Source of the DNA: an uncultured beta proteobacterium
GTDB taxonomy: Bacteria > Pseudomonadota > Gammaproteobacteria > Burkholderiales > Burkholderiaceae_C
Length of the DNA: 64,000 bases
Direction of reading: 5' to 3'
NCBI GenBank assembly: GCA_903838565.1
Contig: CAILZB010000056.1
Coordinates: 1 to 64,000, forward strand
A model generated the notes under the pieces. That model saw only the letters and a list, made by a program, of their open reading frames with translations, was not told where the DNA came from and ran no database searches. Below, in pieces: positions 11,895 through 22,462 of the stretch. Made by a program: the position numbers and the translations under genes. Position 1 is the first letter of the stretch. Each line of letters begins with the position of its first letter.

Positions 11895-14324
11895 TTAACT
11901 GTCGGGCATCTTTTCCGCGGTCTTGGCCGCAACCACTGGAACCGGGCGGCTCCAGGTGGACAGCTTGCCTACCAGCTCGCGGATTTCGCGCATCAGGAAA
12001 ACCATGGGCAGCAGCCGCCAGGCGGCGACCGTGAGAGCCAACGCGACGGGCAAGTAGCGCAAACTCTGTGGCAAGAACAAGGGTAGAAACAACACTGCCA
12101 GCGCCACAAAGATCGCGACTTCCCGGCTCAGCCAGCCCACATTCCGGGCGCGGTGTTCGATCAATTTTTCCACCCGTTGCCGGAGCTGGGTCAGCACCGG
12201 TTTCGCGCGCGCTACCGACTTGCTCATCTGCTGCCAGGGCAGGTCTGAACGCCCCGAGGCGATGATGCGCGCCACCAGATCGAAATAGCGCTCGATGCTG
12301 GCGGCCAGGTCACTGGCACCCGCGGCTGCGATCAAGCTGGCGCGACCGGCACTTTGAATTTGAGACAGTACATTATGGAACTCCGTGCCCATCGCCTTGC
12401 ATTCATCCGCCTGGGCTTCCAATGCGCGTGCGTTCGCTTGCCGTTGACGTTCCACCACCTTGCGCGCTTCGGGCAGCAGCGACTCCAGCACCAGCAGGTC
12501 TGCCGCTGCCATGGATTGCGGCTCACCCAGCTCGCCCAGCCAAGGGCAGTGCACAGTGAGGCTTGCCAGCTCCGCGGTCAGGCGTGAGCGCAGACGCTGC
12601 GCCCAGACCGCGTCGTAGGCGACGGCCAGCAAGCGCGCATGCATGCTGGCCAGGGCTGGGCGATCGGGGTCGCTCTTGCCGTAGAGCAGTTGATGCACAT
12701 CGGGATATTCGTTCGCAGCGGTCGCGGCCGCAGGCGCTTTCGCCTTGATGCGCGCCAAGCCCTGCTCCCAGGCCTGGTCGAACAGATCGGCGGCGTCGCC
12801 CCAGCGCTGCACGATGTCGGCGCACTCGCTGTTGCCCGCCTGCGCATAGGCTTGCAGCACGCGGTATTGGTGCAGCTGATGCAGCCAGTGCGCGGCGTCC
12901 AGGTCGCCATTCAAGGCTTCGTTGGCGTGCATCAACACCGCCCGCAAGCCCAGCGGCTCGCCGCGCCACACGGCAGGAATTCCGGGCGCCAGCTGCAGGA
13001 TCAGCTGCAGCAGTTGCACGTCCACCGGCATGCGGCTGTCGTGGCGCAGATCGATCAGCATGCGCACCACGTTCTGGTCGACCTGCACATCGCGAAACCA
13101 GGTCAGCAGCAGCCCGTTGCCGATGTCGGCCACGCCCGCGGCCCAGTTGCGCGCCAGCGCCACGGCGAGCTGCTCGGGGCTGTAGCAGACTTCCTGGCCG
13201 AGCCGATAGGGCTGCTCGAAACTGTGCGCCACGGCCTGATCCAGCGGCTCGGCCAGGCTGGGATCGTGTGCCAGCCAACGCTTGACCTCGCTGCCACCCC
13301 AGCGGTTCTTGGGGTCGCGGATCAACAGACCGCGCAGCAGCTTCTTGAAGCTCCGATCCGGGACTTCGGCGAGGTCGATGCCGCGCGTCGTCAGATGGTG
13401 CAGCACCACCGGCTCCGACAGTCCGGCAAAGGGGTGCTTGCCCAGAATGGATTCCAGAACGATGATGCCCAGGGCCCAGAAATCGGCCTTGACGTCGATG
13501 ACGCCGGACAGGCTCTCGGGCGAGGCGTAGGGCAGGGTGCGCGCCGTGCCGGTGAAGCGCTGCGTGGCTTCGAGCACCGAGGAGATGCCGAAATCGGTCA
13601 GCACCAGTTCCAGTGGCTGCAAGGCGCGTACCAGGATGTTCTCGGGCTTCAGATCGCGGTGCAGCAGGCCCACCGCGTGCACGGCCTCGATCGCCGCGGC
13701 CACCTGGCGAACCACCTCACGCATCGCCTCGCCAGGCAGCGGACCGGTGCGCAGCAGCTCGCGCAGCGAACCGCTCTCGCAGTACTCCATCAACTCGTAG
13801 GCATAGCCCTGTTGCGTGCCGGTCTGCAGCACCCGAACGCAGTATTTCGGATCCACGCGAGCCATGCGCTGCAGTACCTCGGCCTTGGGATGCACACCGT
13901 GCCGGTAGACCTTGGCCACGAACGTCGGTCCGCCGGACAGACTTTGCACCAGCAGCAGTTCGGCCTCGGCGCCTGACGTGGTCAAAGGCTGGAGGATGCG
14001 GTACTCGTCCTTCAACTTGCCCGGCAGGCTGATCAGGCTCTGCAGCTGATCGCCGGCGCCTGCAGACTGCGCCAAGGGGCGGTCGCAGTAGAGGCAGGTC
14101 TTGGAGCCCGGTGGATTGCTTTGGCCGCAGTCCGCGTGCCCACAGATGCTCGCTTGCGCCTGCGCCGCAACGTCGATCCGCGCTGCCGCAGCGCTTGCAA
14201 CAGCGTCGGCCTGGCGGCTCACCAGATCGACCCCGGCGAGCAAGGCGCCGCAGGCGCAGCGCATCACCTGCGGCTCGTTTTCGGTGCCGCAGCTCGGGCA
14301 GATGCGGTGGTAATTCGCGCTCAA
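11895..14324 (-). CDS. Zinc-ribbon Ser/Thr protein kinase with C-terminal membrane segments
   Basis: The 809-residue protein starts with two zinc-ribbon-like clusters (Cys9, 12, 23, 25 and Cys61, 66, 77, 80). A Hanks-type kinase domain follows (about 105-370) with the ATP-contacting Lys138 in FVAKVYR, the catalytic loop HRDLKPEN (222-229) and DFG (244-246). The glycine-rich loop is poorly conserved. A long helical region with no recognised fold follows, then two membrane helices near 735-785. The TTG start at 14324 is supported by GGAGGAG seven bases upstream. It is the last gene of a coupled four-gene operon with radical SAM and AAA+ genes. Substrates are unknown; the radical SAM, AAA+ and coiled-coil partners are candidates. 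Confidence 0.85.
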   Translation of the reverse strand: MSANYHRICPSCGTENEPQVMRCACGALLAGVDLVSRQADAVASAAAARIDVAAQAQASICGHADCGQSNPPGSKTCLYCDRPLAQSAGAGDQLQSLISLPGKLKDEYRILQPLTTSGAEAELLLVQSLSGGPTFVAKVYRHGVHPKAEVLQRMARVDPKYCVRVLQTGTQQGYAYELMEYCESGSLRELLRTGPLPGEAMREVVRQVAAAIEAVHAVGLLHRDLKPENILVRALQPLELVLTDFGISSVLEATQRFTGTARTLPYASPESLSGVIDVKADFWALGIIVLESILGKHPFAGLSEPVVLHHLTTRGIDLAEVPDRSFKKLLRGLLIRDPKNRWGGSEVKRWLAHDPSLAEPLDQAVAHSFEQPYRLGQEVCYSPEQLAVALARNWAAGVADIGNGLLLTWFRDVQVDQNVVRMLIDLRHDSRMPVDVQLLQLILQLAPGIPAVWRGEPLGLRAVLMHANEALNGDLDAAHWLHQLHQYRVLQAYAQAGNSECADIVQRWGDAADLFDQAWEQGLARIKAKAPAAATAANEYPDVHQLLYGKSDPDRPALASMHARLLAVAYDAVWAQRLRSRLTAELASLTVHCPWLGELGEPQSMAAADLLVLESLLPEARKVVERQRQANARALEAQADECKAMGTEFHNVLSQIQSAGRASLIAAAGASDLAASIERYFDLVARIIASGRSDLPWQQMSKSVARAKPVLTQLRQRVEKLIEHRARNVGWLSREVAIFVALAVLFLPLFLPQSLRYLPVALALTVAAWRLLPMVFLMREIRELVGKLSTWSRPVPVVAAKTAEKMPDS

Positions 14325-14327
14325 CGA

Positions 14328-14984
14328 CTAGCTCCTCCAGGAAACCTGGCTGAACGCCAGTCCGCGCTCCTGGCACGAGGCCTCGAGCGCCGCCATGTCG
14401 CCGCGCGCCGGAATGCCGACGTACCAGACGCGGTCGCCATCCACCATGGTCTGCATGCGCTTGTCCGAACCGTGCGCCAGCGCGTCCACTTGGGTTGCAT
14501 AACGCTGGCGGCCGCGCTCCGACAGCGGCAGCAAAGGCTGGTTGGACGAACCGCGCCAGACCTGTGTGAGCGGCCTGGCCTGGACAAAGGGTTCGGGGAT
14601 GAGCGCGTCGAGTTGCTGCAGCAATCCAGCGTGCTTCTTTCGCAGCGTGGTCAGCGCATAGCCGCTGTAGCACAGGATGTCGAAATCCAGTTTCTCCTGG
14701 CTGCGCCATTGCGCCAACCCGGCCAGCAGCGCGGCCAGCGCCTGGGGTTGATCGAAGGGCTCGCCACCCGTGATGGTCACGCCGTCGAGTACGCTGTTGG
14801 AAGTCTGGCGGCACCAGGACAGCAGCCGTGCCACGCTCATGTCGCGCCCCGGGTCCCGGTTCCAGGTGTCCTGCGACACGCAGCCCTTGCAGCCTATGCT
14901 GCAACCCTGAAGCCAGACGCCGATGCGCCGTCCCGGTCCCAGCACCGTCACCGGAAAGTGCGCCTTGTTGACGGAGATCTTCAT
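14328..14984 (-). CDS. Radical SAM protein of the activating-enzyme (NrdG-like) type
   Basis: The 218-residue protein has the iron-sulfur motif CSIGCKGC (Cys28, 32, 35; CX3CX2C) and TITGGEPFDQ, the SAM-contacting GGE motif. Its size and order resemble small activases such as anaerobic ribonucleotide reductase activator NrdG, but no glycyl-radical enzyme gene is nearby. The ATG at 14984 overlaps the AAA+ stop in an ATGA arrangement; a GTG two codons earlier is the alternative. The kinase gene starts four bases after its stop. The function within the operon is not known; protein modification or [4Fe-4S]-dependent sensing are possibilities. Confidence 0.85.
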   Translation of the reverse strand: MKISVNKAHFPVTVLGPGRRIGVWLQGCSIGCKGCVSQDTWNRDPGRDMSVARLLSWCRQTSNSVLDGVTITGGEPFDQPQALAALLAGLAQWRSQEKLDFDILCYSGYALTTLRKKHAGLLQQLDALIPEPFVQARPLTQVWRGSSNQPLLPLSERGRQRYATQVDALAHGSDKRMQTMVDGDRVWYVGIPARGDMAALEASCQERGLAFSQVSWRS

Positions 14985-16819
14985 GTGCACTGCAAGGTCA
15001 GCGTGATCACTTTTTCCATTTCGGCGAGACCGGTGATGGTCACCGTCTTGACGCCTTCCATCTCGGTCTCGAACAGCACGCGCGACAGCGGGTTGATGAA
15101 CACCGACTCCAGCTGGTTGCCGATGCCGCGCCCGCCGTTGTCCAGGTCGCGCGTGCAGCGCGTCAACAGCGCCTGGCGAAACTCTGCCGAGAGCGCGAGC
15201 TGGACTTTGAATTCCTCCTGCAGGCGCCGCGCCACGTTGCGCAGCATGCCGTCGAAAATGCGCTCGGCCACCTCGGCGCTGATGAAGTTGAAGACCACGA
15301 TGTTGTCGCCGATGCGGTTCAGCAGTTCGGGGCGCGAGAGCTTGAACTTGAAGTAGTTGCCGATGGCTTCGCGCACCCTGGCCTCGACCGTCTCGTAGGG
15401 GTCGCCGGGGCGCACGCTCTGCACGCGCTGGCCCTGGGCGTCTTCCACGTAGATCCCCAGGTTCGAGGTGAACACCAGAATCGTTTCCGAAAAATACGCC
15501 GTGTCGCCGCGGCCATCGGTCAGGCGCCCGTCTTCCAGAATCTGCAGGAATTTGTCCAGGATGCGCGGATGGGCCTTCTCGATCTCATCGAACAGCACGA
15601 CGGAGAAGGGCTTCTCGCGCACCGCGTTCGTGAGCTCGCCACCGGCGTCGAATCCGATGTAGCCGGGCGGCGCACCGAGCAGGCGTGCGCTCGTGTGCTC
15701 CTCGGCGAACTCGCTCATGTCAAAGCGCAGGTAGGCGCGCTCGTCGCCGAACACCAGCTGCGTCAGCGTCTTGGCCAGCTCGGTCTTGCCCACACCCGTG
15801 GGCCCGGCGAAAAACAGCACACCGCGCGGTCGGCTGCCGCCGGATCGGGCCTGCGCGCCGGTCAGGCCCATGACGGAGCGCTTGAGGATGTCCAGCGTCT
15901 TGACCACTGCCGGGTGCTGGCCCTTGACGCGATCTTCGATGAAGGGCTGTGCGTCGCGAATCTTCTGGCGCAGGTAATCCTTGCGCCAGGGGTTGTCCAG
16001 CGCGCCCACCTTGTAGCAGCGCACCGCGTCGTCAATGTCCTGTATGCCCAGATGCGCGCGATCCGCCAGTTCGGTGATGTCCGTGAGCGCGGTCAGCGTC
16101 AGGCCTTCCGTGCCCTCGGTGAAGTTCTTCACGAACTGGTCCCGCGCAGAGGCCGGCGCCTCGGCGAAGCCCTGAAACAGCGGCGCGAGTTGCGTCGCCG
16201 CGGCCTGGCGCGTCTCGAAATCTGGCTTGCCGATGATCAGGCTGGCAACGCGCTCGCTGTCCAGCGTGAACCACGAAGGCAGGTCCTGTGCGCGGTTCAG
16301 TAACCACAGCACCGGGTTGTATTGGGGCGAGCCGCCGCCCTCGCGCGGCACCATGGGCGCGGCGTTCAAGGACAGCTTTTCGGCGGCGACGAAGAAGCGG
16401 TGTTCGGCCTCGCCCAGGTGCTCGACCTGGCGCGTCATGCGCGAGGCGAAGTCCAGCACCAGGGCGCAACGTGCCTCGCGCTGCGCGCTCAATTTCTTCA
16501 TCACGCCGCTGAGCGTCTCCAGGCTCATCACCTGGCAGCCACCGGAGAGCTTGAGATCGAACAATCGCTCGGCCAGCTCGCGCGCCGCGGGCTCGTCCGG
16601 ATAGACGCGCAGGCCGTCGGCCGGGTCGAACACCAGGAAGAAGCGGTAGTCGCGAACTTTCAGCGTCTCCCACAGCGCGCGCAGCAGCGGCACCAGCGCC
16701 ACACCGGTCGCCAGCGGCGTGAGAAAGCTGTCGCGGATGGCGCCCGAGACGACAAATTGCGAGCGGATCGCGAGCAGGCGTTCCAGATCGGCGAGCCAGC
16801 GGGGTGCAGTGGTTTTCAT
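14981..16819 (-). CDS. AAA+ ATPase with ClpB-type second domain and degenerate first module
   Basis: The 612-residue protein carries a full Clp/Hsp100 D2-type AAA+ domain in its second half: Walker A GPTGVGKTE near 339, pore-loop-like PPGYIG near 384, Walker B VVLFDEIEKAHP near 407, sensor-1 TSN near 451, arginine finger in RPELLNRIGD near 502, sensor-2 GGRGIGN near 570. Residues 1-290 look like a first AAA+ module without a Walker A (LVLDF strand near 120 and a lid-like helical segment 240-290). No ClpP-binding loop was recognised. The ATG overlaps the upstream stop (ATGA). It probably remodels or unfolds a client of this operon; the client is unknown. Confidence 0.85.
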   Translation of the reverse strand: MKTTAPRWLADLERLLAIRSQFVVSGAIRDSFLTPLATGVALVPLLRALWETLKVRDYRFFLVFDPADGLRVYPDEPAARELAERLFDLKLSGGCQVMSLETLSGVMKKLSAQREARCALVLDFASRMTRQVEHLGEAEHRFFVAAEKLSLNAAPMVPREGGGSPQYNPVLWLLNRAQDLPSWFTLDSERVASLIIGKPDFETRQAAATQLAPLFQGFAEAPASARDQFVKNFTEGTEGLTLTALTDITELADRAHLGIQDIDDAVRCYKVGALDNPWRKDYLRQKIRDAQPFIEDRVKGQHPAVVKTLDILKRSVMGLTGAQARSGGSRPRGVLFFAGPTGVGKTELAKTLTQLVFGDERAYLRFDMSEFAEEHTSARLLGAPPGYIGFDAGGELTNAVREKPFSVVLFDEIEKAHPRILDKFLQILEDGRLTDGRGDTAYFSETILVFTSNLGIYVEDAQGQRVQSVRPGDPYETVEARVREAIGNYFKFKLSRPELLNRIGDNIVVFNFISAEVAERIFDGMLRNVARRLQEEFKVQLALSAEFRQALLTRCTRDLDNGGRGIGNQLESVFINPLSRVLFETEMEGVKTVTITGLAEMEKVITLTLQCT

Positions 16820-17877
16820 TTGAGCTCGCGTTGCAGCGGTTGAGTGAGCGGTGCGGATGCGTCTTCGTCGGCGAATGACGGCAGCTTGTCGGCATCGACC
16901 AACTGCACCGGCAGCTCGCCCGCGGCGAGACGGCGCGTGACATCGAGTTGCACGCCGCGCAGCTCCAGCGCCTTGAGCAGCGCGGGGAATTCGGCGCACC
17001 ATCGGTCCTCGGCCAGATGGTCGAGCACGCTGCGTTCGTTCTGGCCCTCGCTCACGGCGCGAACCACGTTGAAGTTGACGGAACTTGTCTGCGCGTTCAC
17101 CCGCATGCGGACCATGTACTTGCCCCAGGACTGGCGGCGAAAATGCACGACGCCGCCTTCGACAAACAGCGTGCTGCCAATCTCTTCCACCTGGTAACCC
17201 AGGTCCTTGAGCGACTGCTCGACGATGGTGGCCGTGGCTTGTTGCACCTGCTGTTGTTGCAGGGCTTCGATGTGGGCCTGGATGCGCGCGCGCAGTTCGG
17301 TGGCCAGCAGTTCGGCGCGCTCGCCCGGCAACTGGGCGTCGAGTTCGTGCGCCACGCTCTGGATGTTCTCAGGGACCGCCCCCAGCTCAGCAATGCGCAG
17401 CAGCAGGCGTTGCGCGAGCGAGCGCGGCGCGGCGGCGGGAACAGGCAGATCGACGGCCTGCTCGGCGAACTGATCGCTCTGACGCGCGGCTTCGGTCAAC
17501 AAAATGGCGCGCAGATCGGCGCTCAGTGCCTGCAATGCACGCACATAAGCCGCCAGTGCGTCGGCACTGTCAGCAAGCGGCGGTGCCGGGCGCGTGGCGC
17601 GTACCTGCTCGGTTAGCCCCAAGCGCTCGGCCAGACCCAGGAGTTGATCAAAGGCGATTTCCGCGCTTCGCGCTTCTTCTCCCAGCGCGGCCTGCCCTTG
17701 CTGCTGCGCGGCGCTTTGCACGGCGGTGCGGGTTTCGTTTTGTCGTTGATGCTGTTGTTGCAATGCAGCCGCATTGGCATAGCCCTGATACACGGCCTGG
17801 GCTGCCCGAATGGCCGCTGCAGAGAGCAGGGCGGCGATCGGGCTTGTCGTGATAACGACGGTGATGGGACCACTCAT
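16816..17877 (-). CDS. Unknown helical protein, first gene of kinase/radical SAM/AAA+ operon
   Basis: No family is recognised in this 353-residue protein. It opens with a short Ala-rich, moderately hydrophobic stretch (ITTSPIAALLSAAAIRAAQ), then a Gln-rich probable coiled coil (about 38-75) and long Ala/Leu/Glu/Arg-rich helices to about 210. A mixed alpha/beta segment at 215-300 (GYQVEEIGSTLFVEGGVVHF) could be a small globular domain. It leads the coupled operon and its stop overlaps the AAA+ start, so it may be the adaptor, substrate or scaffold of the ATPase. No strong Shine-Dalgarno precedes the ATG at 17877. Confidence 0.7.
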   Translation of the reverse strand: MSGPITVVITTSPIAALLSAAAIRAAQAVYQGYANAAALQQQHQRQNETRTAVQSAAQQQGQAALGEEARSAEIAFDQLLGLAERLGLTEQVRATRPAPPLADSADALAAYVRALQALSADLRAILLTEAARQSDQFAEQAVDLPVPAAAPRSLAQRLLLRIAELGAVPENIQSVAHELDAQLPGERAELLATELRARIQAHIEALQQQQVQQATATIVEQSLKDLGYQVEEIGSTLFVEGGVVHFRRQSWGKYMVRMRVNAQTSSVNFNVVRAVSEGQNERSVLDHLAEDRWCAEFPALLKALELRGVQLDVTRRLAAGELPVQLVDADKLPSFADEDASAPLTQPLQRELK

Positions 17878-17913
17878 GAGCGCAAGTATCGCAGGAAGTG
17901 GCGGGGCCAGACT

Positions 17914-18252
17914 TCAGCTGTCGGTGTCAAAAAGACTCGCCTGCGTAAACACCGCTGGCAGCTTTTTAGGTGCCCTGATGCGCAGTTGTTTGTTCACGTT
18001 CTCGCGACCAAACACCACCTCGATGTCGGCCACCGTGACGCCGAACAGCGGCGCCAGAAAGCGCAGCATGTGGTCGGTGGCTTTGCCATTCACGGGTGCG
18101 GCGGTGACGCTGACCTTGAGTTGCGTGCCCTTGGGTTTGCCGATGGCGTCCTTGGAGGCGCTGGGCTTGCCCAGGATGTTGACCACCAGCACCTCGCCCT
18201 CCCACGCGTAGAAGGAGTCACCCGTGGCGTTCTTCACCTGGCCGCGGCTCAT
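17914..18252 (-). CDS. DUF167 (YggU-type) family protein
   Basis: The 112-residue protein has the DUF167 core: GKPSASKDAIG, LKVSVTAAPVNGKATDHMLRFLA and FGV...VVFGRENVNKQLRI. These small alpha/beta proteins are widespread but biochemically undefined. The gene starts 12 bases after the stop of the murA-like gene and so is probably cotranscribed with it. An unusual C-terminal tail (PKKLPAVFTQASLFDTDS) extends past the domain. Confidence 0.8.
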   Translation of the reverse strand: MSRGQVKNATGDSFYAWEGEVLVVNILGKPSASKDAIGKPKGTQLKVSVTAAPVNGKATDHMLRFLAPLFGVTVADIEVVFGRENVNKQLRIRAPKKLPAVFTQASLFDTDS

Positions 18253-18264
18253 GGCAGAGGCGGC

Positions 18265-19542
18265 TTACGCCCGCCTGGAAATGCGCGCGCCCAGGCCCAG
18301 CAGCTTTTCTTCCACGTGCTCGTAACCGCGTTCGATCATGTTGGCGTTTTGCACCGTGGACTTGCCCGTGGCGCACAGCGCCGCACCCAGGAGCGCCATG
18401 CCGGCGCGGATGTCGGGCGAGCTCAGCGTGGTGCCGCGCAATTGCGATCTCCCGCTGATGACGACGCGGTGCGGGTCGCAGACCACGGCGTTGGCGCCCA
18501 TGGCAATGAGGCGGTCCACAAAGTACAGGCGCGACTCGAACATCTTCTCAAAGAACAGCACGCTGCCCTGCACCTGCGTGGCCAGCGTGATCATGCAGCT
18601 CATCTGGTCGGTGGCAAATTGCGGCCAGGGGCCGTCGCCGATCACGGGAATGGAGCCGTCGTAGTCGGGGTTGATGCGCAGCTCCTGGTCGGCGGGCAGA
18701 TGGATGTGATCCTTGAAGAGCTCGATCTTCACGCCCAGCGTGGCAAACACGCGCTTGCACATCCAGTAGGCGTGCAGGTCCGTGCCTTCGACCTTGATCT
18801 CGCCGCCGGTGGCAGCGGCCAGCGCGAGGTAGGACGCGGCTTCGATGTGGTCGTGGCAGACGCGGTGCGTGGTGCCGCGCAGCGAACTGACGCCATCGAT
18901 CTCGAGCTGGTTCGTGCCGATACCGGTGATCCTGGCGCCCATGGCGTTGAGCATGTGGGCCAGGTCCTGCACGTGCGGCTCGCACGCGGCGTTGCGGATG
19001 ATGGTGTGGCCCGCGCTCACGGCGGCCGCCATCAGGATGTGCTCGGTGCCGGTGACGGAAGGCTCGTCGAAGAAAAGGTCTGATCCGCTCAAGCCCTTGG
19101 GCACGGTGAAGTCGTAGGTGCTTCCCAGCTCCAGCGTGGCGCCGAGTTTTTGCAGCCCATAGAAATGCGTGTCCAGGCGCCGCCGTCCAATCACGTCGCC
19201 ACCGGGCGGGTAGAGCTTGGCCTTGCCCGTGCGGTGCAGCAGCGGCGCCACGCACAGGATGGAGGTGCGCACCTTGTTGCACAGCGCCTGCGAGATTTCG
19301 CTGCTTTTAACGTGCGCCAGGTGCACGCTCACGCGTTCGCCGCTGCGCTCGACCTTGCCGCCGAGCTCGACGATCACGTCCAGCATGTGGCGCACGTCGA
19401 TGATGTCGGGAACGTTCTCCAGGATCATTTCCTGATCCGTGAGGATGCACGCGGCAATCATGGGCAATATGGCGTTCTTGTTGCCCGAGACGCGGACCGT
19501 GCCGCGCAGCGGAACACCGCCTTCGATTTCAAAAATGGACAT
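18265..19542 (-). CDS. murA: MurA-like UDP-GlcNAc 1-carboxyvinyltransferase with Asp in place of catalytic Cys
   Basis: This enolpyruvyl transferase family member (425 residues from this ATG) keeps SGNKNA with Lys22 and Asn23, the segment after the active-site loop (GRRRLDTH), the ATDQM aspartate and the ERGYEHVEEKL arginine. The loop reads YPPGGDVIG, so residue 116 is Asp where E. coli MurA has Cys115. Cys-to-Asp is known in MurA of Mycobacterium and Chlamydia, where it gives fosfomycin insensitivity. Context (DUF167, no hisG or mla genes) suggests a paralogue of the housekeeping murA. A GTG start at 19584 behind GAGG would add 14 residues; the ATG fits the family start better. Confidence 0.88.
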   Translation of the reverse strand: MSIFEIEGGVPLRGTVRVSGNKNAILPMIAACILTDQEMILENVPDIIDVRHMLDVIVELGGKVERSGERVSVHLAHVKSSEISQALCNKVRTSILCVAPLLHRTGKAKLYPPGGDVIGRRRLDTHFYGLQKLGATLELGSTYDFTVPKGLSGSDLFFDEPSVTGTEHILMAAAVSAGHTIIRNAACEPHVQDLAHMLNAMGARITGIGTNQLEIDGVSSLRGTTHRVCHDHIEAASYLALAAATGGEIKVEGTDLHAYWMCKRVFATLGVKIELFKDHIHLPADQELRINPDYDGSIPVIGDGPWPQFATDQMSCMITLATQVQGSVLFFEKMFESRLYFVDRLIAMGANAVVCDPHRVVISGRSQLRGTTLSSPDIRAGMALLGAALCATGKSTVQNANMIERGYEHVEEKLLGLGARISRRA

Positions 19543-19605
19543 GGGAGGGGTTGAGTCAGAGAAAGGTGTGGGTGATTCTGCCACGTGACCTCAGGGGCTC
19601 GGGGT

Positions 19606-19914
19606 TCAGTGGTAATCGGATTCGCGCTGGTGCCGCAGGGCCAGCAGTGTGACGGTGCTGGCGTCTTCGATCTCAAACAGGGCGACGTAGCCGGAAGCGC
19701 CAAACGGGATCACCAGTTCGCGCAGCCGGGGACCGTGCTGGCCTTCCGCGGCTTTGCGGCAAGAGAAGGGAAACTGCTCCAGCAGTTTCAAGGCATTTTT
19801 GATGGTTTGCAGGGCATGCTCGGCTACCGTGACATCGTGCGCGAGCAAGAAATCGTACAGCCCCAGCAGGTCCTCTTCGGCCGCTGGCGTGAACCGGACC
19901 TGGTACCGAGTCAC
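19606..19914 (-). CDS. RelE/ParE-family toxin
   Basis: The 102-residue protein has the ParE-like pattern: VRFTPAAEEDLLGLYDFLL near the N-terminus, AL..IKNALKLLEQFP, then the strand region LRELVIPFGASGYVALFEIEDASTVTLLALRHQRESDY. ParE-type members poison gyrase and RelE-type members cut mRNA; the sequence is closer to ParE but activity cannot be assigned. The GTG start at 19914 overlaps the antitoxin stop (GTGA), the standard coupled antitoxin-toxin order. Confidence 0.85.
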   Translation of the reverse strand: MTRYQVRFTPAAEEDLLGLYDFLLAHDVTVAEHALQTIKNALKLLEQFPFSCRKAAEGQHGPRLRELVIPFGASGYVALFEIEDASTVTLLALRHQRESDYH

Positions 19915-20315: not shown

Positions 20316-20328
20316 CATGGCTCATAAT
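20301..20328 (+). promoter_or_regulatory. Probable imuA promoter (-35 TTGCAG, -10 CATAAT)
   Basis: TTGCAG at 20301-20306 and CATAAT at 20323-20328 are 16 bp apart. The LexA box begins two bases after the -10 element, a placement that would block transcription initiation. Confidence 0.55.
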
Positions 20329-20329
20329 A

Positions 20330-20345
20330 CTGTACAAATAAACAG
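20330..20345. promoter_or_regulatory. LexA (SOS) box before imuA-imuB-dnaE2
   Basis: CTGTACAAATAAACAG fits the LexA consensus CTGT-N8-ACAG exactly, with an AT-rich centre. It lies 22 bp before the imuA start, so the mutasome operon should be induced by DNA damage. Confidence 0.88.
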
Positions 20346-20367
20346 TATCATTTGTGATCTTGCTGCC

Positions 20368-21147
20368 ATGCCCCCCGCCCTTGCTCTTGCTTCTTCGGTC
20401 GACCCGTCCGCGTTTGCGGGAGCGGGCGTCTGGCGCGCCGACCAGTTGGCAGCAAGCGCTGGCAGCGTGCTGTCCAGCGGTCACCCGGCGCTGGACGCGC
20501 AATTGCCCGGCGGCGGCTGGCCGGTGGGCGCGTTGACGGAGTTGCTGCAGGTGCAGTCGGGTGCGGGCGAATGGGGGCTGTTGCTGCCCGCGCTGGCGCA
20601 ACGGCTGTCCAGCACTGCCTCGCCCAAGGCGAGGCTGGTGCTGGTGGGCGCACCGCATGTGCCGCTGGGTCCGGCGCTACAGGCGCGTGGACTGGACGCG
20701 CAGCGGCTGCTGTGGGTGCGAACCGATACGCCTGCGGCGCGCGCCTGGGCGTGCGAACAAGCCCTGCGCTGCGCCGACGTGGCCGCCGTGCTGGCCTGGC
20801 TGCCGCAGGTGCGCGCCGATGCGCTGCGGCGCCTGCATCTGGCCGCGCACGATCACGCCAAGCTGCTGTGGGTGTTGCGTCCGGCACAGGCGCAACACGA
20901 ATCTTCTCCTGCGCCGCTGCGCCTGTTGCTTGAGTCCGCGGCACAGGGCTTGGGCGCGCCGCACGAGAGCCACGTGAGCATCTTGAAACGTCGCGGCCCG
21001 CCGCTGGAGCAGGCGGTGTCACTGTGCCTGCACAGCGTTGCGCTACGGGCTTTGCTGGCGGCAGCGAAGGTGCGTGGCGAGCAACGCCGGGAAACGGTGG
21101 CTGCGCGGAGGGAGCATGCACTGGATCGCCTTGCAGTCGCTGTGTGA
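20368..21147 (+). CDS. imuA: ImuA, SOS mutagenesis accessory protein
   Basis: The 259-residue, RecA/SulA-related protein of translesion synthesis operons has a core of the form LSSGHPALDAQLPGGGWPVGALTELL near 30-56, typical of ImuA. It acts with ImuB and the polymerase DnaE2 in damage-induced mutagenesis. An in-frame ATG at 20317 lies upstream of the LexA box and inside the promoter, so the ATG at 20368 is chosen. The 3' end overlaps imuB by 32 bases. Confidence 0.87.
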   Translation: MPPALALASSVDPSAFAGAGVWRADQLAASAGSVLSSGHPALDAQLPGGGWPVGALTELLQVQSGAGEWGLLLPALAQRLSSTASPKARLVLVGAPHVPLGPALQARGLDAQRLLWVRTDTPAARAWACEQALRCADVAAVLAWLPQVRADALRRLHLAAHDHAKLLWVLRPAQAQHESSPAPLRLLLESAAQGLGAPHESHVSILKRRGPPLEQAVSLCLHSVALRALLAAAKVRGEQRRETVAARREHALDRLAVAV

Positions 21148-22462
21148 AGCCCCTGCGGGGCAGACCGTTTCAACGCAGGACGAAGCGGCGCAGCGCGCGG
21201 CCTTGGGTTGGTGGGCCCTGCAGTTCACACCGCGCGTGGCGCTGCTGGACGAGGCCGTGCTGCTGGAGGTGTCGGGCAGCGAGCGGCTGTTTGGCGGGCG
21301 CGCCGCCTTGTTGCAGCAGTTGTTGAAGCCACCACTGGAGCTCATGGGCTGGGCGCAGGGCGCGACCTCGTTGCTGGCGCTGGCCTGTCTGCGCACCGGT
21401 GTGGGTCAAGGGTCGGCGCCAACGCCGGACGCCTTGCCCTTGCACACCCTGAGTGCGGCGCGCGAACATCTGGCCACGCTCTCGCGCCTGGGCTGCAACC
21501 ACTGGGGCGAGTTGCGCGCGCTGCCGCGCGGCGGCGTGGTGCGACGCTTTGGCGCGGGCCTGCTCGACGCGCTCGATTGCGCCTACGGGCTCAAGCCCGA
21601 AGCCCATGCCTGGCTGGTCGCGCCTGAGGCGTTTGAGGTCAAGATCGAACTGCACGCGCTGGTGGAACAGGCGGGCGCGCTGATGTTCGTGGCGCAGCGT
21701 TTGTTGGCGCAGTTGCAGGCCTGGCTGCAGGCGCGGCAAAGCGGCGTGCTGGCGCTGCAATGGACCTGGTTTTTTGACGCACGGCGCAGCCATGCGCTGG
21801 GCGACGCTGCAGCCAGCGACGGCCTGCTGATCCGCACCGCGCAAGCCACGCGCGACATGTCGCATCTGGCGCGACTCACCGCCGAACAACTGGCGCGCTG
21901 CACCCTGGCCACGCCGGTGCACAGCCTGCGCCTGCAGTCGATCGAGGTGGTGCCACTGCCTACGGCCAGCGCCAGTTTGCTGATTGAGGAGCGCCTGCTT
22001 GGCGACAGCCTGCACCAGTTGATCGAGCGCCTGGGCGCGCGTCTGGGGCCGCAGCAGGTGGTGTGGCTGCAGCCTCAGGCCGAGCACCGGCCCGAGCACA
22101 TGCAAAGCCTGGAGCCGGCGGCGTCGTTCTTGCAGCGCACGGTGGAAAAGAAGCGAGCGGAAAAATGCTCAACCCGAGACGCCGTGCCCGACGCGGCGCT
22201 GTACCCGACCTGGCTGCTGGAGCGACCACTCAGGCTGGCGCTGCAGGGCAGCCGTCCGCTGTACCAAGGCGCGCTGCAACTGTTGGTGGGGCCGCAGCGT
22301 CTCGAAGTGATGGGTTGGGCGCAGATCGACGCGCCTGCGGCGGCGCTGCGCGACTACTTCATCGCGCTCAGTCCGCACGCCGGTCTGCTCTGGGTGTACC
22401 GCGAGCGGCTGCCTGCGGGCCAGGCCAGCGACCTGTGGTTTCTGCACGGGATTTATGCGTGA
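21116..22462 (+). CDS. imuB: ImuB, Y-family polymerase-like hub protein
   Basis: The 448-residue Y-family-like protein starts MHWIALQSLCEAP with GGAGGGAG immediately upstream. ImuB proteins keep the polymerase fold but lose the acidic catalytic residues and act as a hub linking ImuA, DnaE2 and the sliding clamp. The N-terminal part here lacks the DxD start of active Y polymerases. Conserved points include LEVSGSERLFGG and the downstream helix-hairpin region (LGCNHWGELRALPRGGVVRRFG). It lies between imuA (overlap) and dnaE2. Confidence 0.87.
   Translation: MHWIALQSLCEAPAGQTVSTQDEAAQRAALGWWALQFTPRVALLDEAVLLEVSGSERLFGGRAALLQQLLKPPLELMGWAQGATSLLALACLRTGVGQGSAPTPDALPLHTLSAAREHLATLSRLGCNHWGELRALPRGGVVRRFGAGLLDALDCAYGLKPEAHAWLVAPEAFEVKIELHALVEQAGALMFVAQRLLAQLQAWLQARQSGVLALQWTWFFDARRSHALGDAAASDGLLIRTAQATRDMSHLARLTAEQLARCTLATPVHSLRLQSIEVVPLPTASASLLIEERLLGDSLHQLIERLGARLGPQQVVWLQPQAEHRPEHMQSLEPAASFLQRTVEKKRAEKCSTRDAVPDAALYPTWLLERPLRLALQGSRPLYQGALQLLVGPQRLEVMGWAQIDAPAAALRDYFIALSPHAGLLWVYRERLPAGQASDLWFLHGIYA

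Follow-up and report, generated by a model that had tools for sequence, protein, structure and literature searches.

A co-inherited module of a coiled-coil protein, an Hsp100-type AAA+ protein, a radical SAM protein and a Ser/Thr kinase in an uncultured betaproteobacterium

The window, by which we mean the whole stretch of 64,000 nucleotides that was analysed, derives from an uncultured betaproteobacterium (contig CAILZB010000056.1, assembly GCA_903838565.1). Four open reading frames (ORFs) span positions 17877-11895 on its minus strand, in the order CC–AAA–RSAM–KIN. CC (17877-16816) encodes a coiled-coil protein of 353 residues with an N-terminal MSGP sequence, coiled-coil helices and a C-terminal α/β domain. 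AAA (16819-14981, 612 residues) is an Hsp100-type double AAA+ protein with a degenerate first domain, D1, and an intact second domain, D2 (Pfam AAA_2 and ClpB_D2-small). RSAM (14984-14328, 218 residues) is an NrdG-like radical S-adenosylmethionine (SAM) protein (Fer4_12, 3e-27) and KIN (14324-11895, 809 residues) a Hanks-type Ser/Thr kinase (Pkinase, 4e-34) with cysteine clusters in front and a hydrophobic end. Pfam matches above cut-off are to AAA+ models for AAA, all within its second half, to Fer4_12 for RSAM and to kinase models for KIN. ATGA overlaps join CC to AAA and AAA to RSAM, and KIN starts with TTG three bases past the RSAM stop codon; the ORF coordinates thus agree with an earlier note on this DNA, which described four minus-strand genes joined by such overlaps or a three-base gap. 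Of 56 loci measured, 35 share this gene order, and 24 of these have the same 4-base overlap of CC and AAA.

The same genes recur together in other genomes. RSAM alone was used to query genome contigs and the best 80 of at least 526 relatives were fetched. Partners were counted as linked when AAA lay on the strand of RSAM and no more than 2.5 kb from it, and CC or a kinase domain no more than 8 kb away. AAA is present at 65 of the 80 loci, CC at 62 and a kinase domain at 71. Fifty loci have full context, that is at least 4 kb before and at least 8 kb after RSAM, and among these the counts are 45, 46 and 49, respectively. The earlier note had set the adjacency of the four genes as the test of its proposal; AAA, CC and a kinase domain all accompany RSAM at 43 of the 50. 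As a control, the same query gave 65 viral-contig loci with one AAA (L151, of a helicase type described below) and no CC. Going by record titles, complete sets occur in organisms that we take to belong to Pseudomonadota, Actinomycetota, Verrucomicrobiota, Bacteroidota, Chlamydiota and Acidobacteriota.

All five genomes searched from the genus have CC, as do 10 of the 300 searched from the order, the genome of the window being included in both counts; of the other 35 relatives, one has it. A survey of the phylum with the AAA-N profile matched 10 of 398 genomes, again including that of the window. Among the survey regions read, three have weak AAA-N matches without partners and one lies at a contig end; L197, L198 and L199 have AAA, RSAM and kinase matches with no CC match. 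At the site where CC is expected the L197 contig ends, L199 has an unmatched ORF of 422 residues and L198 has nothing. RSAM also adjoins AAA in seven of eight plasmid regions with AAA homologues (Rhizobium, Caballeronia, Moellerella, Photobacterium, Acinetobacter, Polaromonas and Aristaeella); in the eighth, from Geminocystis, the AAA homologue has no adjoining RSAM. The CC of the window gave no tblastn match on plasmids, and blastn with Moellerella or Xenorhabdus genes revealed no carriers in E. coli.

Where the genes are separated they tend to be retained. In nine genomes without AAA or CC close to RSAM, AAA is matched in eight, and CC in six of the seven tested. Five Zoogloeaceae-type metagenome-assembled genomes (MAGs) hold an RSAM–KIN pair with AAA on another contig in all five and CC in four. 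Other genes stand in front of RSAM at L069, L070, L071 and L078, so these are real splits; at L072 no more than 0.9 kb of contig precedes RSAM and an assembly break may be responsible instead. The L078 genome carries RSAM–KIN, AAA and CC on three contigs. That of L069 has no CC match, and its AAA contig breaks off at the expected site of CC. Two Actinoallomurus genomes have KIN–CC apart from AAA–RSAM. Other loci lack a part too, among them L048, L055, L059-L062, L075, L079, L090, L093, L107 and L109, and many of them stand at the end of a contig. An Opitutia MAG (L116:1-11909), the one of the nine genomes without an AAA match, has three kinase matches, CC and RSAM with FHA-like and PP2C-like genes, and in an Akkermansia MAG an AAA gene interrupted by stop codons (L095:5039-6355) adjoins CC, kinase and RSAM genes.

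Four arrangements can be distinguished. Type A, that of the window, has the order CC–AAA–RSAM–KIN and is mostly betaproteobacterial. Type B, the fusion type, is ordered AAA–RSAM–giant–CC and accounts for 20 of the best 80 loci; the giant, of about 2100 residues, has kinase, DUF4011, superfamily 1 (SF1) helicase and MTES_1575 restriction endonuclease (REase) domains in the one example scanned, from L099. In type C, from Actinomycetota, Verrucomicrobiota and others, the operon includes PP2C-like genes (11 of 101 loci) or FHA-like genes (8 of 101), where the 101 loci include some places fetched twice. These families were defined by BLAST clustering with representatives checked against Pfam; three PP2C-like proteins were checked, one falling just under the cut-off. 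The earlier note remarked that no PP2C gene accompanies the operon, which is true of the window itself. Type D, on four plasmids, combines a helicase, a PIN nuclease, a protein termed F5, AAA and RSAM, with no kinase; it was assigned from annotation and profiles, the Photobacterium example being checked with Pfam. F5 resembles CC in position only.

Three loci extend this picture. An IMG/VR contig (L151:415-10564) carries a helicase, an ORF of 718 residues in the PIN position, F5, AAA and RSAM; here type D may ride on a virus, or the contig may be misplaced. An operon on an Aristaeella plasmid (L020:57-16029) has helicase–REase, two kinase, FHA, RSAM, AAA and PP2C-like genes with no recognisable CC, the helicase–REase being a separate gene. 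In Methylocaldum sp. 14B (L076:9204-16922) type III-B Cmr genes lie about 0.2 kb downstream of RSAM on the same strand, and no CRISPR array was found behind them in 16900-19839.

Trees of the four parts are congruent. For the 58 loci with all four, pairwise correlations of tree distances are 0.87-0.94, compared with 0.15 for the best of 500 permutations; for the 20 fusion-type loci on their own they are 0.74-0.88, the best permutations reaching 0.42-0.61. Each of the four trees, rooted at the midpoint, groups the fusion type in a single clade despite hosts from four phyla, and therefore the set moves as a unit. Exploratory partial correlations are highest for CC–RSAM (0.59), followed by AAA–KIN (0.46), CC–AAA (0.42), RSAM–KIN (0.35), CC–KIN (0.18) and AAA–RSAM (-0.07). 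They point to CC as the hub, with RSAM and CC the tightest pair.

We conclude that the four genes constitute one real, conserved and co-inherited module. That they form a single functional unit, as the earlier note supposed, is strongly supported by adjacency, by co-retention when split and by the congruent trees. Might they nevertheless be chance or hitch-hiking neighbours with no joint function? Operons of unrelated genes exist and congruent trees can arise from co-inheritance alone, but the sets are complete in six phyla, going by record titles, gene orders have changed and the genes are retained across two or three contigs, which leaves this explanation with almost no credence.

The AAA protein is, on its motifs, a ClpB-like Hsp100 with a predicted dead D1 ATPase and an intact D2 ATPase. 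A Walker A motif is absent from D1 in all of the 45 aligned family members (0/45) and present in D2 in all (45/45), bearing out the suggestion of an Hsp100 with a degenerate first module; in the window the D2 motif, GPTGVGKT, is encoded at 15805-15782 on the minus strand. The pore motif GY[VI]G occurs in 43 of the 45. An AlphaFold2 model has a mean predicted local distance difference test (pLDDT) score of 88.3, with residues 378-391 below 50. Residues 3-611 of this model align with ClpB (6oax_E, residues 181-857) with Z 28.1 and a root-mean-square deviation (RMSD) of 6.5 over 514 residues. The protein shares with ClpB the D1–D2 fold and the D2 motifs. It differs in that D1 has no Walker A, so that there are not two active AAA+ domains, and in having no N-domain, because the alignment begins at ClpB residue 181; the score is 249 bits compared to a ClpB cut-off of 1232. 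In the model D1 and D2 are not separated by a pair of long helices, though a coiled-coil M-domain was not searched for on its own. Against ClpV (TssH) of the type VI secretion system the score is 213.6 bits, under the cut-off of 884.95. The PADLOC models PDC-M37B and DolB match AAA over D2 only. In phage records the 20 matches listed out of 149 cover D2 only, as other Clp proteins do, and no record covers 80% of the query.

RSAM has the radical SAM core together with the CX3CX2C, GGEP and GSxNQ motifs, features it shares with NrdG and the pyruvate formate-lyase activases. CX3CX2C (14903-14880, minus strand) is present in 79 of the 80 relatives, the exception, L079, being cut by a contig end, and this much of the earlier description of a CX3CX2C radical SAM protein is secure. 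A profile of the family finds pyruvate formate-lyase activase chains in the PDB at 1.6e-18. In contrast to NrdG, the C-terminus is longer, the score of 89.5 bits (2e-25) lies under the NrdG cut-off of 126.1 and there is no glycyl-radical partner to be found in the genome. The earlier note had seen no glycyl-radical enzyme nearby; Gly_radical and NRDD each give 0 matches both there and in the whole assembly, which is 97.9% complete, and the same searches match in 3 and 6 of 14 control genomes. Monophyly of the module-linked RSAM sequences with respect to relatives on phage contigs was considered. The smallest clade containing all 76 linked sequences has 99 members with a support of 0.116, and the 23 additional members are 12 genome loci where no AAA or CC was found beside RSAM and 11 viral-contig sequences.

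The first gene, CC, was said to match no recognised family and searches of Pfam, NCBIfam and PADLOC agree, with no match that scores meaningfully, the best in Pfam having E 0.83. The AlphaFold2 model (mean pLDDT 87.8, residues 131-152 below 50) places a first strand at residues 5-11, followed by long coiled-coil helices and the C-terminal α/β domain. MSGP is found in 53 of 63 CC ORFs as opposed to three other ORFs of over 300 residues (1104 such ORFs in all). The mean column identity of the family alignment is 25%, yet Cys294 (codon 16998-16996, minus strand) and Gly320 (codon 16920-16918, minus strand) are each kept in 53 of the 53 rows that have a letter at that column, from 54 rows in total. 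A known fold could not be assigned. The best structural matches in the PDB are KA1-like domains (Z 7.8, RMSD 2.8 over 89 residues), at the level that the tool states to be noise, Foldseek returned nothing at E ≤0.001 in the PDB or among viral models, and the CC profile against PDB sequences gave a best E of 0.026. A DUF1257/Ycf35-like origin was also considered; a search of the genome of the window, the only place searched, gave no match, and this is not a homology test.

F5, the third gene of the plasmid type, was considered as a homologue of CC and is not supported as one. The hhalign probability is 2.3 for whole profiles, and 14.3 local and 0.9 global for the C-terminal parts, with only five rows for F5. 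F5 keeps a cysteine without an invariant glycine behind it.

The resemblance of RSAM to glycyl-radical activases raises the idea that CC is itself a minimal glycyl- or thiyl-radical protein, on which RSAM would generate a radical at Gly320, using Cys294, outside the barrel fold that glycyl-radical enzymes are known to have. CC keeps the Cys and Gly pair, whereas the best-kept Cys column of AAA reaches 37/45 (the kinase was not examined in this respect), CC and RSAM are the tightest pair and no known glycyl-radical enzyme was found in the genome. Against this, many hosts are presumably aerobic, the CC model has no known glycyl-radical fold and the cysteine of F5 lacks its glycine, with the reservation that homology of F5 and CC is unsupported. 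We consider the idea improbable.

KIN has eight cysteines in two zinc-ribbon-like clusters (residues 9, 12, 23 and 25; 61, 66, 77 and 80) and two hydrophobic stretches that start at residues 729 and 758, in keeping with the original description of a Hanks kinase with zinc ribbons in front and membrane helices behind. The catalytic Lys, HRD Asp and DFG Asp are all present and the Gly-rich loop is divergent. Among the short kinase forms these residues are kept in 46/47, 47/48 and 47/47 rows with letters, respectively, from a total of 49. The 22 giants differ: the catalytic Lys is replaced in all (by Thr in 20) and the DFG Asp is kept in one, with the HRD Asp kept in 21. Because of these losses the kinase domain of the nuclease-fusion giants is assigned, from its residues, as a pseudokinase. 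The fusion of a predicted pseudokinase to a helicase and nuclease points towards a putative role in conflict with invaders.

How does the module relate to systems already described? The helicase–REase part of the fusion matches PDC-S37 (4e-149), Hhe (9e-68) and Mokosh MkoA (4e-47), and the helicase of the plasmid type matches MkoA at 8e-93. The SF1 helicase and nuclease domain concerned are found in none of the four genes of the window, and no PADLOC model matches CC, or RSAM of the window or fusion type. PglW of BREX type 2 matches KIN over the kinase region only, at 43 bits against a cut-off of 990. The FtsH ternary conflict systems (PMC7159879) also have a double AAA+ protein in which the first domain is dead and the second active, and a subset includes a radical SAM protein; they differ in having an FtsH-type AAA+ protein and in being centred on MoxR and vWA, and the section concerned names no Hsp100 or CC-like protein. 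The match to an already described, named system that the earlier note named as a refutation did not turn up in the family libraries or in the open literature searched, most subscription papers and bioRxiv being out of reach.

One possible link to defence concerns the surroundings of type B. In genome G755, from the family of a Pseudomonas strain, CC–giant–RSAM–AAA comes some 7-8 kb after an ORF of PheT length, IhfA, MerR and tRNA-Pro; the names PheT, IhfA and MerR are our assumption, guided by the published gene list of the defence hotspot cDHS1. At L243:8410-19899, in the Pseudomonas family, type B sits at a cDHS1-like site adjoining tRNA-Pro. The right flank of cDHS1 in Pseudomonas aeruginosa consists of a small hypothetical gene, a large DUF4011 gene and a radical SAM gene, a set that matches type B, and the merR and DUF4011 flanks are present in every P. 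aeruginosa isolate (PMC10250203). In the passages concerned the genes form the boundary and not a system, and AAA and a kinase go unmentioned; the window's type lacks the helicase–nuclease. This match supports a defence link for type B, possibly one of position only. Within the family of the Pseudomonas strain at L112, CC occurs in 9 of 298 genomes, six of them strongly, and L112 and the five fetched are all type B. At E 1e-15, 20 PADLOC models are matched among 118 proteins neighbouring type B and 10 among 118 (of 279) neighbouring type A, an excess that is weak evidence for defence.

Upstream of CC in the window, on the same strand, lie an ORF of 112 residues (17914-18252), which we take to be DUF167-like, and one at 18265-19584 that we take to be MurA. 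The two run into CC with a 36-base gap and because of this gap and the shared strand the four-gene operon may be read through from murA. Scans for promoters and terminators gave no signal beyond the chance level. A similar 112-residue ORF stands in front of CC in two relatives (L027 and L029). Two plus-strand ORFs at 20317-22462 resemble ImuA and ImuB of an SOS mutagenesis cassette.

From these observations we infer a mechanism of four steps and a biological role. Our preferred reading, held tentatively and at somewhat less than even confidence, is that CC, RSAM and the Hsp100 make up a sensing and remodelling core, that the kinase is its output and that the ancestral function was probably defence. 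First, RSAM would modify CC, probably at or near Cys294 and Gly320. The D2 motor of the Hsp100 would then grip and remodel CC, or a complex held together by CC, and the remodelled state would switch the kinase. Lastly the membrane-anchored kinase would phosphorylate targets whose effect is to slow growth or to protect the cell. The same core would, in relatives, control the pseudokinase–DUF4011–SF1 helicase–REase fusion instead, and a diverged version, whose counterpart of CC is unproven, would be paired with a helicase and PIN nuclease. From these nuclease-fusion and helicase–PIN outputs it follows that the ancestral job was probably defence against invading DNA or RNA. The proposal in the earlier note that kinase and RSAM act on a complex of AAA and CC is plausible.

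Several observations weigh against this reading. The loci examined are the 80 RSAM relatives nearest to the window, and both shared descent and class structure inflate the raw tree correlations. Two survey loci with stronger AAA matches, L200 and L201, have no RSAM match nearby, L198 and L199 have AAA and RSAM without a CC match, and the L116 genome has RSAM, CC and kinases with no match to the AAA-N profile. With regard to defence, the type of the window has no nuclease, and 10 PADLOC models were matched near it, where the counts are small and several of the models generic. The DUF4011 and radical SAM genes of the Pseudomonas hotspot were taken as flanking core genes (PMC10250203). With the flank read in this way, and the site adjoining tRNA-Pro, the position of type B may be incidental. 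The neighbours of the window's operon, under the names we have assumed for them, look like housekeeping genes.

The last point also favours a different explanation, that the module serves stress signalling and not defence. Here redox or protein-folding stress would be reported by the oxygen-labile Fe-S cluster in RSAM or by the state of CC, the Hsp100 would act either on aggregates or on CC itself, and the signal would be relayed by the kinase, with PP2C and FHA proteins in other phyla. Retention of CC in each of the genomes searched in the genus agrees with this, and the PP2C-like and FHA-like genes of type C make up a typical phosphosignalling set. The repeated association of the core with nucleases and SF1 helicases does not agree, nor does a patchy spread in the order with carriage on plasmids, a pattern commoner for conflict systems. 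We judge stress signalling to be rather unlikely, if a serious contender.

A bolder version of the sensing and remodelling core, which we regard as doubtful, is that the module represents a previously unrecognised class of immune or signalling system. A radical SAM protein without a glycyl-radical enzyme would modify a CC scaffold at the Cys/Gly pair, the Hsp100 would read the modification, and the output would be either an active membrane kinase or a pseudokinase–helicase–nuclease. Should this be true, one machine common to at least six phyla would link radical chemistry on a protein with an unfolding motor and with phosphosignalling or the cutting of nucleic acid. Orphan 'activase-like' radical SAM proteins would gain a function, and the two outputs, kinase and pseudokinase, would be an example of a switch found in nature. 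A further implication would be that the core genes bordering a known defence hotspot of Pseudomonas form a system themselves.

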